A stretch of DNA of 49,715 nucleotides from Methanomassiliicoccus sp. (GTDB lineage Archaea; Thermoplasmatota; Thermoplasmata; Methanomassiliicoccales; Methanomassiliicoccaceae), in the NCBI GenBank assembly GCA_012719175.1, contig JAAYAX010000009.1, positions 1 through 49,715 on the forward strand. Reading direction: 5' to 3'. Position 1 is the stretch's first letter; each line of letters opens with the position of its first letter. This document shows positions 5,613 to 21,344 of the stretch, in pieces. Made by a program: the position numbers and the translations under genes. Under the pieces are notes generated by a model. That model saw nothing but the letters and a program-made list of their open reading frames with translations, made no database searches and was not told the origin of the DNA.

Positions 5613-5642
5613 TCGGTCCTTATCTTAGGATGGGATGCAAAA

Positions 5643-15200: not shown

Positions 15201-15584
15201 ATGACCGACGTGACCATCCGCGGAATTGACGACGATGTCTACTCTAACTTTACCGCAGAGGCCAAGAGGCGCAACCTCTCCATAGGAGAGCTCACTACCA
15301 TCGTCATGCGGGCCCTGATCGATGATGTTGGCACGACGAACTACCGCATCGGCAACTTGTCGAGCCTAAACGTCTCCCGGAAGGACCTGGAGTCGTTGAA
15401 GGGCCCGGTCCTGTTCCACAACATAAAGTTGCTGGAGTTCACGGACGATGTAGATTGGAACCTGTTCGACAAGCGAGTAATGTCCATCAAGAACTGTACC
15501 AAGGTCATGATACCTCAATCACTGACCCGGTTCCAGGTACTGACAAAGTGCGCCCAGGTCGGAGAGGTGAAAGCGAAGGGATGA
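15201..15584 (+). CDS. Ribbon-helix-helix-like small protein
   Basis: 127 residues. The N-terminus has a strand TDVTIRGIDDDVYSNF, a helix EAKRRNLSIGELTTIVMRALID: the classic RHH (CopG/MetJ) arrangement of a short strand followed by two helices. The C-terminal 75 residues alternate strands with short helices (VLFHNIKLLEF, VMSIKNCTKVMIP) and are unfamiliar. It could be a DNA-binding regulator or an antitoxin-like protein, with the upstream two-helix membrane protein as its operon partner. No toxin family is recognisable in that partner, so I do not call a toxin-antitoxin pair. Confidence 0.75.
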   Translation: MTDVTIRGIDDDVYSNFTAEAKRRNLSIGELTTIVMRALIDDVGTTNYRIGNLSSLNVSRKDLESLKGPVLFHNIKLLEFTDDVDWNLFDKRVMSIKNCTKVMIPQSLTRFQVLTKCAQVGEVKAKG

Positions 15585-15707
15585 CGGTCAAGAAATGATC
15601 CGAGATCGATCCATTCGTTCATCTAAGGTCTTGGCGTCCGGTCGCCGGAGATGGCCACAAAACGGATACGCAATGGATGACGTGGATCAAGAAAGAAAGG
15701 TGATGGT

Positions 15708-15779
15708 GCAGGTGCCGGGATTCGAACCCGGGCGTTTAGCTTGGAAGGCTAAAATCCTAACCAACTAGATTACACCTGC
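15708..15779 (-). tRNA. tRNA-Gly (anticodon TCC)
   Basis: 72 nt on the minus strand. The acceptor stem GCAGGTG/CACCTGC has seven pairs, the D stem is ATCT/GGAT, the anticodon stem TTAGC/GCTAA has loop CTTCCAA, and the T stem CCGGG/CCCGG has loop TTCGAAT. The anticodon TCC reads GGA/GGG glycine codons. There is no intron and the CCA end is not encoded. Confidence 0.97.
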
Positions 15780-16116: not shown

Positions 16117-16160
16117 AAAAAATTAAGGTGTAGAGGAAGCGCCCCATCCTGCGCTTCCTC
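16117..16160 (-). terminator. Strong hairpin plus T6 run on the minus strand
   Basis: A perfect 10-bp stem, GAGGAAGCGC (16133-16142) with GCGCTTCCTC (16151-16160), has an 8-base loop. On the minus strand it is followed after ten bases by six T (16117-16122). It lies just downstream of the 39-codon minus-strand ORF and looks like its terminator. Confidence 0.55.
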
Positions 16161-16175
16161 CAAAGGGGGCCGTGC

Positions 16176-16295
16176 TCACACCACCGCCACGATCAGCCTT
16201 GTTGTCTCCCATCCTGACAACTCAACCCAACGACCCTTAACAGGACCGATGTCATGCCAGCGGAACGATCCGTGCCTGTTTTTGTTGCATCCCAT
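16176..16295 (-). CDS. Putative 39-residue peptide or ORF fragment
   Basis: ATG at 16295 directly follows an in-frame TAG; stop TGA at 16176-16178. The peptide includes GSFRWHDIGPVKGRWVELSG and an LIVAVV end, a composition that looks protein-like rather than random. A TATA box at 16338-16345 and a hairpin terminator at 16117-16160 bracket it, giving a predicted RNA of about 190-200 nt. It may be a true small protein, a dual-function RNA, or a remnant of a larger gene such as a transposase fragment. I do not recognise a family and no ribosome site is visible. Confidence 0.35.
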   Translation of the reverse strand: MGCNKNRHGSFRWHDIGPVKGRWVELSGWETTRLIVAVV

Positions 16296-16306
16296 CTAAG
16301 ATATTG

Positions 16307-16443
16307 CGTCCGACACTAGTCCGACAAGAAAGGTAATACATATAACTTGTATTTAATGATTTGTAGTGGACGGGCTGACGATGATAATAATGTGATGCCA
16401 GATAGTATAACCTAATGCACTTTGAAAGAGCCCGTCCGACACT
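16307..16443. repeat. GTCCGAC repeats and a 9-bp inverted repeat
   Basis: GTCCGAC occurs at 16308-16314, 16319-16325 and 16434-16440. The first and third copies lie in an 11-bp identical block CGTCCGACACT (16307-16317 and 16433-16443). GGACGGGCT (16368-16376) and AGCCCGTCC (16429-16437) are inverted copies 52 bases apart. They lie between the minus-strand unit and the TPR gene promoter, so a shared regulator site is possible. Confidence 0.45.
16338..16345 (-). promoter_or_regulatory. TATA box of the minus-strand small unit
   Basis: TTATATGT on the minus strand within an AT-rich tract; expected start near 16316. Two tandem GTCGGAC motifs (minus-strand reading) lie exactly around that start. 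Confidence 0.5.
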
Positions 16444-16492: not shown

Positions 16493-16529
16493 CAACTACC
16501 CCAATGCTTCTCGATAGAAAGGTGATGGG

Positions 16530-19500
16530 ATGGGATTTCTAGAATCGCTCCGCGATAAGGAGCTTAGAGGGCTCTATAGAGCTCGAAAGCTGGTCGAGAG
16601 CGCTGACCTGCTTATCGAAAAAGGTCATGTTCAAGAAGCACTGGCCGAGTTTGAGACAGTCAAAGAACTGGTGTCTCGGGAAGGTATCAAGGAGAGCCCC
16701 CACTCCAAGGACTACGCTGATCTGCTGATCGTCCTTTCAGGAGTGATGTTAAAGGCCAAATCATATGATGATGCTCTAGCGACGGCAGACAAAGCGCTGA
16801 CGTTGAACCCATCCAATCCTTCCGCCATGTCCGCCAGGGCCCGGGCGTTCGCGGTGAAGGGATCACCCGCAGAAGCCATCACCCAGATGGACCGAGCGAT
16901 AGAGCTCAAGGGCAATGATAAGAAGTTGCTCTTTGATAAGGCCAAGGTCCTGGAGCAGTCGGGGGACAAAGAACAGGCGGCCGCGGTGCTGAAGAAGGTA
17001 GTGGAGATGGACCCGTCGGACATCGAGACCTACGACGCGCTCATCGCCCTAGATGATCAGAAGAGATGGACCATGGCCAAGGCCGAAGCTCTGCTTCGCA
17101 GCAAGCGGTATGATGATTCCCTCAAGGCTCTAGACGATGTTCTTTCTCATGACCCCAAGAACCTGGATGTAATGCTGGTCAAGGCCAAGATCCTGATGGA
17201 GGAGCGTTGCTTCGATGAGGCCTCTGCGATATACGATATGGTGCTGGACATCGAGCCGACATCGTTCAGCGCCAACATTGGCAAGGCCCTGGTGCTCCGT
17301 TCCGCGGGGGAACTGGAGGCCTCGGTGAAATTCTACAAGGAGGCCTTGAGAGCGGACGTGGAGAGGAAGGAGACATGGAACGAGGTCGGCCCCTTGCTGG
17401 AACAACTCAAGCGGTTTGAGGAGGCCGAGATGGTCTATACCCACGCGCTGAAGCTCGATCCCGATTACCTCTCCGCTCTGGAGGGCCATTACCGTACCCT
17501 GCAAGCTCTGGAGAGGTGGCCAGAGATGATCGATGCGGCCTCGCTCGTGCTGGCGCAGAAGCCGGAGCTCGCTGTCCACAAGAGCAAGATCACCGCCCTG
17601 GTTAAGACCCAGCGCTTCAAGGAAGGACTCGAAGCGGTTAACACCGCCCTGCTGCAGTTCCCCAAGGAGCCGGAGCTGGTCTCCCGCAAGAGAGATATCT
17701 CCGCGGCCCTGGGCATGGGGGATGAGACCGTCAAGTACTGCGAGGAGATACTTGCCGATAAGCCCCACGATCCCGAGACCATGTACGATCTGGGAGTGGC
17801 ATATTGCAGAGCCCTCCGGTTTCATGAATCCATAAAAATGTTGGAAAAGGCCCTCAAGACCCATGAGGACAAGGAGAAGGTCCTCCTGGCCCTGAAGGAT
17901 GCATATAAGGGCATAGGCAAGGACAAGGATGTCCTGATGATGTGCGAGCGGGTACTGGAGATCAACCCCCAGAACACCAGCGCCATGGTGGACGCGGCAG
18001 TGGCCCTGGACCGCTCTGGAAGAAGGGAGGAGGCCTGCCAGCTGTACGACCAGACCCTGCAGCTGGAGCCAGGCAACCAAGATGCCCTGCGCAACCTCTG
18101 CATCTCGTTGTTCAATCAGAAGAAGTACGATCGTGCTCTGGAGAAGTCCCTGGACGGCACGCAGCTTTTCTCATCGGACCCCAGCTTCTGGATGATCAAG
18201 GGGGACACCCTGTATGCAACGGGACGGTTCTCGGAAGGGGCGGAGGCATTGGCCAAGGCCATATCCCTGGACCCTACCGACAAGAGGCTGTGGTGGTCCC
18301 GCGGCATGGCCCTGGTGTCCGACGGCAGGCACGAGGAGGCGATAGTCTCCTATGATGAGGCCCTTAAGTTGGACCCTCAGGATTTCAACATACTCATCAG
18401 CAAGGGAGTGGCCCTGGCAATGATGGACCAGCATTCCCAGGCGATCCAGTGCTTCGATAGGGCCATCTCCGTGGACGAGGACAACAAGTTCGCTCAGGTC
18501 CAAAGAGGACGCTCCCTCGCCAAGCTAGGCATGCACGCCGAGGCCGTGAACTCCTACAACCGCGCCTTGGCCCTGGGCCACAAGGACCTGGAGGTCCTGG
18601 AGGCCAAAAAGGGGTCCCTGAAGCTCCTGGGTAGGGTGGACGAGGTGATCTCCACCTGCGACCAGATACTGAAGCTGGATCCCAAGAACAAGGCGGCCGC
18701 CATGGACAAGGCTTCCTCCCTTCAGACCCTGGGAAGGGTGGACGAGGCGCTTAGGACGTACAACAAGGTCCTGGACGGCAATCCGCGGGACGACCTGGTG
18801 CTGGAGAAGAAGAAGGAGGCCCTGATGCTGAAGGGGGACTACACAGGCGTGATCGATGCCTGCAACCTCCTGCTTCAGATCGAGCCTCGTTCCAAGTCCG
18901 CCCATACCGATCGCGGTGACGCCCTGCAGGCGCTGGGCCGGACACAGGAGGCATTGATCGAATATGATTATGCCCTGAGGCTCGATACCAGCGATAAGGC
19001 GTTATACAACAAGAAGGGGATCGCCCTGATGGACCTGGGCAACTATCAAGGAGGTGCCGAGGCCTTCGACCGCGGGTGGAAGATGGACCCCGGCGACTCG
19101 GTCATGCTGGACAACAAAGGCCGGGCCCTTTTGATGTCACGCGATGCCTCCGGAGCGCTGGAGGCTTTCAATCATGCGGCGAACATAACTCCTGCCAACC
19201 ACACCTTCCGCATGGACCAGGGACGGGCCCTGGCCACCCTGGGCAGCTACGACCAGGCACTGGAGGCATTTGAAGCAGCCCTGCAGCTCAATGCCAACGA
19301 TCCTCAGGTGTGGAAATACAAAGGGAACGTGCACCTGAAGCTCGGCAACAAGGAAGAGGCCATCAAGTGCTTCGACCGCTCCGCGGAACTGGGCTCCCCC
19401 GATCCCGCCACATACCTGTCCAAAGGTAAGGCGGAGGAGGAACTGGGCAGGCTCGAGGACGCACTTGGCTCGTATCTTGATGCGGCCAAGATCAACGCCA

Positions 19501-21344
19501 ACGACGCTCGGCTGTGGATGCGTATAGGGATCGCGCAGGCCAAGCTCGGCAAGCTCCCAGAGGCGGTGGAGAGCCTGGACCGTTCCATCGCCCTGGACCG
19601 CACCAACAATCGTGCCTGGCTCAACCGTGCCGCCCTGCTGGAAAGGCTGGGGGACGATGAGGAGGCGCTGCGTTCTTACGATACGGTCATCGGTAATGAG
19701 CCCCAGGACAAGTATGCCTGGAGCGGGAAGGGTCGCATCCTCATGAAGATGGACAAGCTCGACCACGCCAAGCGTTCTTTCGACCGGGCGCTGGAGCTGG
19801 ACCCGCAACTAGAGTCGGCAGTGGAGGGCAACACCGCCCTGGATTTGAAGCTGAAGCAGCGGCAGATCTCCATATACGCGGCCCGGGTGCTGGAGTACGA
19901 GCACCGCCGTAACGCCAAGGTAACGCGCGAGGAGGCCTTCAAGGACTGTGGGCTGCCCTTCAGCGCCCTGGACGAGGTTACGGCATACCTTCAGGCCAAG
20001 GAGGCAGTGGACGTGGAGGGGCTGGACGAGGGGCGCTTCCATGCCTACGAAGTGCTGTCGCACGATGTCCTCATGGCCACCCTGGGCAACCCCAACTATC
20101 AGAGGCAGGGGCTGCGCCTGGCCGACGTGTACATGAGCATGCCGGACCGAGATGTGGAAAAGGCCAAGAAGGTCATGTCGTACATCGAGACCGTCAACAA
20201 GATGGACTTTACCCCTGAGGCCATGGACAAGAAGACCGAGAAGATGGTGCGGGCGGCCCTGGAGCTGCCCTCGTCCGCCCATAGCACCCTGGGGATCATG
20301 CAGAACCTGGAGGTAGGTCTGTACACCGCCCGGCGGATAGTGAGCATGCTCAACAGCTTGAGCTCGGGAGCATCCGCGCCCCGTCAGTATCAGGTAGCAA
20401 GGGAGCGGCCCCCGTCAACAAAGGATGCGCCTCAGGCACCCGTTGCAAAGGGGCGTGTCAGATCACGAGAGACAGTGGACCCTGCCGATGTGGAGGGGAG
20501 CTATGAGAGGCAAGAGGTAAGACCGATGTTCAAAAGGAAGAGGAGAGAGGAGGCCGCACCCGCGAGGCCCGTGGACCGCTCCAAAGCGGTGACTGTCACT
20601 TATCAACAGGAGACCGGCCAGTACCATGGACGCAAGTGCCTTTTCCATGGGGGGGCGGCGGTGTCAGTGTGCCCCAGCTGCGGGACCATGTTCTGCATGG
20701 ATTGCGTAACCAACCTGGATATCTGTCCGAGGTGCCAGCTGGCCATCGACTTCGTCGATGGGGCGACCATAGGCAAGGCCGTGGACGACAGGGACCTTAT
20801 AGAGACCGAGGCCCAGAGGAAGGCGATCCAGCAGCGGTGGGCGATGAAGCGCCTGGCGGAGGCGGATCGCAACAGCGCTGCCGGTGAAAAGCAGTACAAG
20901 GCCGTGGAGCGGGAGCTGAAGGCTGCGAGGCCGGACAAGGAGAGGATGGTGGAGAGGCTGGTGCAGGAGTCGCAGAAGCGATATAACGCTCCGCCGGTCC
21001 AGAACGCCCCCCAGGCTGCATACCGTGCGGCCGCCGAGAGCGTGGAAGAGGCCCCGCCCACCCTGAAGGAGCAGATCGAGATGCTGCAGCAGGACGCCCC
21101 CGAGCCGCAGATCTATCAGCCGGCGAGCATGGTGGAGGAGACCATGCCCAGAGAGGCTGCGTTGGCAGAGGGAGAGCTCAATGAGATGGAGGCGGTGGAA
21201 GCAGCGCCAGAGCCCGAGGAGATATTGCCGGATGAGCGCGCCCCTCCCGTGAGAAGGTCCGACGACCGGAGGGAGAAGCTGAGGGAGATCCTGGAGGCCG
21301 AGCCGGAACCGGCGGCTGAGGTGCGTGACCTGAGCCGGTTGTAA
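16530..21344 (+). CDS. Giant TPR-repeat protein with C-terminal Cys-rich treble-clef-like domain
   Basis: 1604 residues. From about residue 20 to 1100 it is an almost unbroken array of some 30 tetratricopeptide repeats (for example ALEAFEAALQLNANDPQVW, AVESLDRSIALDRTNNRAW). A helical region follows (about 1110-1290), then a flexible linker. A zinc-binding-like module lies near 1366-1402 with C-x8-C-x2-C-x4-C-x2-C-x6-C-x2-C spacing (KCLFHGG...CPSCGTMFCMDCV...CPRC), like B-box/treble-clef fingers. The last about 200 residues are acidic, low complexity and coiled. It has no signal peptide or membrane segment, so it should be a cytoplasmic scaffold. The partner proteins are unknown. It stands alone with its own promoter. 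Confidence 0.88.
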   Translation: MGFLESLRDKELRGLYRARKLVESADLLIEKGHVQEALAEFETVKELVSREGIKESPHSKDYADLLIVLSGVMLKAKSYDDALATADKALTLNPSNPSAMSARARAFAVKGSPAEAITQMDRAIELKGNDKKLLFDKAKVLEQSGDKEQAAAVLKKVVEMDPSDIETYDALIALDDQKRWTMAKAEALLRSKRYDDSLKALDDVLSHDPKNLDVMLVKAKILMEERCFDEASAIYDMVLDIEPTSFSANIGKALVLRSAGELEASVKFYKEALRADVERKETWNEVGPLLEQLKRFEEAEMVYTHALKLDPDYLSALEGHYRTLQALERWPEMIDAASLVLAQKPELAVHKSKITALVKTQRFKEGLEAVNTALLQFPKEPELVSRKRDISAALGMGDETVKYCEEILADKPHDPETMYDLGVAYCRALRFHESIKMLEKALKTHEDKEKVLLALKDAYKGIGKDKDVLMMCERVLEINPQNTSAMVDAAVALDRSGRREEACQLYDQTLQLEPGNQDALRNLCISLFNQKKYDRALEKSLDGTQLFSSDPSFWMIKGDTLYATGRFSEGAEALAKAISLDPTDKRLWWSRGMALVSDGRHEEAIVSYDEALKLDPQDFNILISKGVALAMMDQHSQAIQCFDRAISVDEDNKFAQVQRGRSLAKLGMHAEAVNSYNRALALGHKDLEVLEAKKGSLKLLGRVDEVISTCDQILKLDPKNKAAAMDKASSLQTLGRVDEALRTYNKVLDGNPRDDLVLEKKKEALMLKGDYTGVIDACNLLLQIEPRSKSAHTDRGDALQALGRTQEALIEYDYALRLDTSDKALYNKKGIALMDLGNYQGGAEAFDRGWKMDPGDSVMLDNKGRALLMSRDASGALEAFNHAANITPANHTFRMDQGRALATLGSYDQALEAFEAALQLNANDPQVWKYKGNVHLKLGNKEEAIKCFDRSAELGSPDPATYLSKGKAEEELGRLEDALGSYLDAAKINANDARLWMRIGIAQAKLGKLPEAVESLDRSIALDRTNNRAWLNRAALLERLGDDEEALRSYDTVIGNEPQDKYAWSGKGRILMKMDKLDHAKRSFDRALELDPQLESAVEGNTALDLKLKQRQISIYAARVLEYEHRRNAKVTREEAFKDCGLPFSALDEVTAYLQAKEAVDVEGLDEGRFHAYEVLSHDVLMATLGNPNYQRQGLRLADVYMSMPDRDVEKAKKVMSYIETVNKMDFTPEAMDKKTEKMVRAALELPSSAHSTLGIMQNLEVGLYTARRIVSMLNSLSSGASAPRQYQVARERPPSTKDAPQAPVAKGRVRSRETVDPADVEGSYERQEVRPMFKRKRREEAAPARPVDRSKAVTVTYQQETGQYHGRKCLFHGGAAVSVCPSCGTMFCMDCVTNLDICPRCQLAIDFVDGATIGKAVDDRDLIETEAQRKAIQQRWAMKRLAEADRNSAAGEKQYKAVERELKAARPDKERMVERLVQESQKRYNAPPVQNAPQAAYRAAAESVEEAPPTLKEQIEMLQQDAPEPQIYQPASMVEETMPREAALAEGELNEMEAVEAAPEPEEILPDERAPPVRRSDDRREKLREILEAEPEPAAEVRDLSRL

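Follow-up and report, generated by a model that had tools for sequence, protein, structure and literature searches.

The window, i.e., the whole stretch of DNA that was analysed (49,715 nt, contig C9 of genome G000, from a methanogenic archaeon), contains a gap between a tRNA-Gly(TCC) gene and a divergent TPR gene. This arrangement is syntenic throughout the family and recurs in modified form in other families of the order. The features of the gap and its neighbours are as follows.

15704-15779, minus strand: tRNA-Gly(TCC), downstream neighbour and synteny anchor
16117-16122, minus strand: T6, probable archaeal terminator, assigned from sequence; similarity to G003 falls just beyond it
16117-16329, minus strand: predicted noncoding RNA of ~205 nt, its ends placed from the TATA box and the T-run
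16131-16162, minus strand: hairpin H3, 12-bp stem with the loop AGGATGGG at 16143-16150; same loop in 11/11 family loci on differing stems
16176-16295, minus strand: 39-codon ORF, not coding sequence; stop at codon 13 in G003
16201-16221, minus strand: hairpin H2, GTTGTC-AGGATGGGA-GACAAC, loop at 16207-16215; covarying stems, invariant loop
16287-16296, minus strand: leader motif GATGGGATGC, conserved in relatives; 19 copies in the genome vs 2 for the control
16308-16325, no strand assigned: tandem operator GTCNGAC-N4-GTCNGAC, located where transcription is predicted to begin
16350-16357, minus strand: TATA box ATTAAATA for the RNA; 11/11 family loci have an A/T box aligned with it
16434-16440, no strand assigned: one GTCNGAC half-site in the spacer separating the two promoters; family loci have it in the equivalent position
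16530-21344, plus strand: TPR gene, divergent, 1604 aa; relatives syntenic

Read along the minus strand, the TATA box is followed by the tandem GTCNGAC-N4-GTCNGAC, the leader motif, a variable middle, H2, H3, and T6, with the ATTAAATA box lying ~25-28 nt ahead of the GTCGGAC pair. The signal GGAUGGGA is present in three copies, one in the leader and two in the hairpin loops, and the stem of H3 contains a perfect 10-bp inverted repeat (16133-16142/16151-16160) that is extended to 12 bp by flanking pairs. At the edge of the gap, GATGGGATGGGA (16524-16535, plus strand) overlaps the start codon of the TPR gene and is retained in the family; since the conserved MGF N-terminus of the TPR protein accounts for part of this retention, the occurrence is no more than suggestive. 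Across the tRNA-Gly gene from the gap, a 127-aa protein is encoded at 15201-15584 (plus strand), with a weak FitA-like RHH match at its N-terminus (E 0.0075, below the cut-off).

The segment 16122-16325 is 98.5% identical to the nearest relative, G003, vs 76.6% for the spacer between the two promoters, 72.6% at the third positions of TPR codons, and 45.7% beyond the T-run, where similarity falls just past T6. The 39-codon ORF shares in this conservation, its DNA being 99.2% identical in G003, yet the frame is interrupted there at codon 13. Conservation of the RNA thus greatly exceeds that of the flanking sequence even though the ORF is interrupted, which argues for selection on the RNA, and the locus very probably holds a conserved noncoding RNA inside a cell-division operator regulon, with the transcript itself predicted. 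Covariance models of Rfam gave no match above threshold on the gap. A C/D or H/ACA guide RNA was considered and rejected, given that conserved boxes are lacking by eye and that there is no Rfam support. In the literature on Methanomassiliicoccales, covered in part, no account of the RNA, the motif or the operator was found.

The original prediction had proposed a hidden minus-strand unit of ~200 nt encoding a small protein, a regulatory RNA or both. Conservation strongly supports the unit and favours the regulatory RNA, whereas the 39-aa protein is rejected and the promoter has to be moved, as the box proposed at 16338-16345 is not conserved and the family keeps the one at 16350-16357. The tandem GTCGGAC, by contrast, is present at 16308-16325 (minus strand) as proposed, the site being kept in relatives, and both it and the hairpin are meaningful. 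The conservation check suggested at that time gave a divided answer: the stem pairing is kept by compensatory change, and neither the ORF nor the claimed TATA box is conserved. Both the 10-bp repeat and T6 (A6 on the plus strand, 16117-16122) exist, although T6 does not adjoin the stem but is separated from it by 8-10 nt. A bacterial intrinsic terminator was rejected on account of this distance, and a terminator scan makes no call. H3 is probably better viewed as a carrier of the AGGATGGG loop, and T6 would then be the terminator, of the archaeal T-run type.

The 39-codon frame does run from an ATG at 16295 to 16176, and the ATG, a TATA-like box, a hairpin, and the T-run follow each other in the proper order for a real small protein, acting alone or with an RNA function. 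Such a protein is nevertheless scarcely credible, since the frame terminates at codon 13 in G003, and no frame resembling it was found in the other relatives, nor any match of the 39-aa peptide in Pfam or NCBIfam. In G001, G005, and families f3-f6, the corresponding transcript encodes a different, conserved protein of ~58-67 aa with a WM-x-x-H core. Within the order, 27 of 147 genomes carry this protein, for which Pfam and NCBIfam give no confident match. A search with alignment A1 for an intact ORF of this kind, with the WM-x-x-H core, gave no match in G000. In the window, G003, G006, G009, and genus g3, the small-protein frame is decayed or absent, and the leader and the 3′ hairpins are kept. 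The protein-coding transcript is likely to represent the ancestral state. In genus g6 of family f3 (L014-L020, L052-L060), the loop of the 3′ hairpin in the small-protein mRNA is C-rich (CCCCCC) instead of GGATGGG, which would allow pairing with the leader motif, itself G-rich.

H2 and H3 have widely varying stems among eleven loci of the family, and GGATGGG is invariant. Alignment A4 comprises eleven hairpins with 9-nt loops, ten from the family of the window and one from L016 (f3). Two-sided changes occur in 8/8 pairs, and the covariation score is 1.139 vs 0.327 for shuffled and at most 0.32 for slid controls. Paired bases occupy 96.6% of the cells, a percentage biased upward because the hairpins were picked with structure in mind, so that more weight belongs to the two-sided changes and the comparison with slid controls. 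The locus appears to exceed chance, for which the cross-species evidence is strong and the fold of the single sequence by itself modest (z = -1.97). Hairpin model R1 matches the window at 16197-16225, the model having been built partly from that hairpin, and a genome-wide search with R1, a weak model, yielded no further loop-presenting RNAs.

The operator GTCNGAC-N4-GTCNGAC was found in 35 of 41 genomes, mostly at three to four sites each, vs one site in each of two of the 41 genomes for the reversed control. The four sites of G000 lie at the noncoding RNA, at smc (which adjoins a weakly ScpA-like gene), at a gene for a 307-aa protein that lies upstream of PCNA, and ahead of ftsZ1 at a distance of ~140 nt. 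As counted from the site listing, the operator occurs at smc in 21 genomes and at the PCNA-linked gene in 18. In locus L109 (5015-5938), the 307-aa protein encoded upstream of PCNA has hydrophobic stretches and no assigned family, and the start codon of its gene lies within a GGGATGGGA motif immediately after the operator. An RNA hairpin formed by the operator is possible at many loci, but the sites upstream of ftsZ1 are not co-transcribed with the gene and the copy in the window has a G-G mismatch; therefore, this candidate was rejected and a DNA operator is preferred.

A gene for an RHH protein of 79-85 aa is present in 30 of the 41 genomes (C3:29324-29560, minus strand, in G000), and 29 of these 30 have GTCNGAC at -43 to -52 in the promoter. 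It is absent from the nine f2 genomes and G007, with 0-2 operators each, and from the incomplete G004. The RHH gene largely co-occurs with the operator, with the exception of G015, in which two operator-like sites were found and no RHH gene was detected. The autoregulated RHH protein is accordingly a tentative candidate for the operator binder, tentative because of G015. An 11-bp spacing is compatible with cooperative RHH binding.

The sequence GGGATGGGATGC or a close variant lies just 3′ of the operator at smc, the PCNA-linked gene, and the noncoding RNA, and the motif beside the PCNA-linked gene is missing in G019, G022, and G025. Its near-constant spacing to the operator at smc and the PCNA-linked gene would be expected of a DNA element, i.e., a second transcription-factor site or a promoter element by the operator, with the transcript incidental; the leader motif, taken alone, could act as DNA or have a part in ribosome binding. 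However, the RHH 3′UTR, a hairpin RNA beside ffh, and covarying loops that lack an operator contain the motif as well, and a DNA element is accordingly considered improbable. Of 41 genomes, 40 contain the related pattern AGGGATGGGATGC, for which the control gives 0 matches. Outside coding sequence, it lies in the leaders of smc, of ftsZ2 (in several genomes behind a CdrS-like RHH gene), and of the small-protein gene, in the RHH 3′UTR (27/30 exact and three with one change), and in the ffh-side hairpin RNA. About half of the 19 copies of GATGGGATGC in G000 are within coding sequence, and these may be due to chance. The presence of the motif in 3′UTRs, stand-alone hairpin RNAs, and covarying loops argues for reading as RNA, and GGAUGGG probably works as an RNA signal.

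The hairpin RNA beside ffh is ~66 nt long (C4:192236 in G000, L200; L212-L241, alignment A6); its core is invariant across the order, GTCAGAAGGGATGGGATGCACTC is invariant in most rows, and Rfam gave no match to it above threshold. A second copy of the motif in the window, CTTAGGATGGGATGCAAAA at 5628-5638 (plus strand), is preceded by a TATA-like box and followed by the GTG start (~5643) of an ORF that begins VYFDIAQL. In relatives, a GGATGGGA- or GGAAGGGATG-like sequence stands immediately ahead of the start of this gene, which is probably a further member of the RNA-signal regulon.

An RNA signal of this form might alternatively act as antisense, with GGAUGGG loops pairing with CCCAUCC in targets. 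Exposed G-rich loops can serve as antisense seeds, TCCCATCC is approximately twice as common as its reversed control (141 vs 69), and UCCCAUC is present in 5S rRNA; nonetheless, the cell-division mRNAs bear the sense motif and not its complement, and no conserved complementary RNA occurs among the motif sites examined, so that antisense pairing is, if anything, slightly more improbable than the DNA element. Pairing with UCCCAUC of 5S rRNA in particular was set aside, as the invariant first G lacks a partner.

The explanation that best accommodates these observations, with a probability of roughly 0.45-0.5, is that the window encodes a multivalent decoy RNA titrating a putative RNA-binding protein in a cell-division and chromosome-maintenance regulon of Methanomassiliicoccales. 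The comparison supplies the conserved RNA, the covarying hairpins, the regulon of operator and motif, and the decay of the ORF, and from these we infer transcription, operator binding by the RHH protein, a protein that reads the RNA signal, and action as a decoy. Briefly, the RNA would be transcribed from the conserved TATA box and controlled at its start site by the tandem GTCNGAC operator, to which the autoregulated RHH protein would most likely bind. It would display its copies of GGAUGGGA from the leader and the two covarying loops, and a putative RNA-binding protein would read this signal near start codons or in UTRs. As the leaders of smc, ftsZ2, and the PCNA-linked gene and the RHH 3′UTR carry the same signal or a close variant, the RNA would compete for that protein and thereby tune the translation or stability of those mRNAs, by repression or activation. 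Its presumed origin is a small-protein mRNA, of which the ORF decayed and the RNA signals were retained.

The same origin would also fit a remnant that acts in cis only, in which the hairpins and the motif serve the processing, stability, and 3′ end of their own transcript and nothing is titrated. The ORF is intact in G001, G005, and f3-f6 and decayed in the window, and the motif is found in cis within other mRNAs as well; once the protein was lost, however, cis control should have relaxed, yet the RNA has stayed 98.5% conserved with three motif copies, and a purely cis-acting remnant is thus rather unlikely. Furthermore, multiple motif copies arose in this transcript by two routes, namely as tandem leader copies in L069, L073-L076, and L078 and as 3′ loop copies in f1, L016, L067, L068, and L071, which appears to fit titration better than a role in cis only, short of proof.

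The proposed decoy is comparable to several known systems. CsrB/CsrC and RsmX/Y/Z are decoy RNAs of the CsrA/RsmA system (review PMC7652899), and the RNA resembles CsrB/RsmZ as a noncoding RNA with repeated GGA loops in hairpins, the signal of which is also found in the leaders of target mRNAs (PMC7652899). The trait of multiple GGA motifs in hairpin loops is seen here as two GGATGGG loops together with one leader copy. Unlike CsrB/RsmZ, the RNA is archaeal and presents a 7-nt invariant GGATGGG in loops of 7-10 nt on stable, variable stems; CsrA (PF02599) was found in 0/15 genomes, with matches in control genomes, and because of this absence the RNA is likened to CsrB/RsmZ and not regarded as a member.

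In the CdrS-FtsZ2 regulon of haloarchaea, a small RHH regulator is linked to ftsZ, and the response includes an smc homologue (PMC7439475, PMC8406309). The transcriptional side of the regulon proposed here resembles it: the operator lies at smc and ftsZ1, and the candidate RHH regulator, whose gene largely co-occurs with the operator and has GTCNGAC in its own promoter, is predicted to bind there. It differs in its tandem GTCNGAC operator, placed mostly at the start site, and in the added RNA signal; moreover, the candidate RHH protein is a different protein from CdrS and is unlinked to ftsZ. In several relatives (L215, L220, L221, L228), the gene ahead of ftsZ2 encodes a CdrS-like RHH protein. 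Beyond CdrS in haloarchaea, the coordination of FtsZ, SMC, and replication genes in archaea is poorly known, and the present analysis supplies an operator, a candidate regulator, an RNA signal common to key messages, and a decoy-like RNA. As with mRNA-derived regulatory RNAs, related loci code for a protein and the window keeps the RNA features only, although the features retained here are a regulon-wide operator and RNA motif. If the decoy reading holds, this would be a CsrB-like strategy without CsrA, in which an mRNA has turned into a regulatory RNA.

The signal extends beyond the order. Among 300 genomes of the class, GATGGGATGCACT is present in 158, with two control matches, and hairpin RNAs like the ffh-side one occur in other families of the class in different gene contexts. 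It is plausible, though somewhat less likely than the decoy itself, that a class-wide post-transcriptional cell-cycle regulon exists, in which the mRNAs of ftsZ, smc, and the RHH regulator would be recognised through GGAUGGGAUGC by a putative RNA-binding protein, with two noncoding RNA families competing for that protein. These would be the class-wide hairpin RNA of ~66 nt, located near ffh in Methanomassiliicoccales, and the multivalent RNA of the window's family. Locus L297, outside the order, combines the motif and the small protein with GTCGGAC and GTCCGAC sites.
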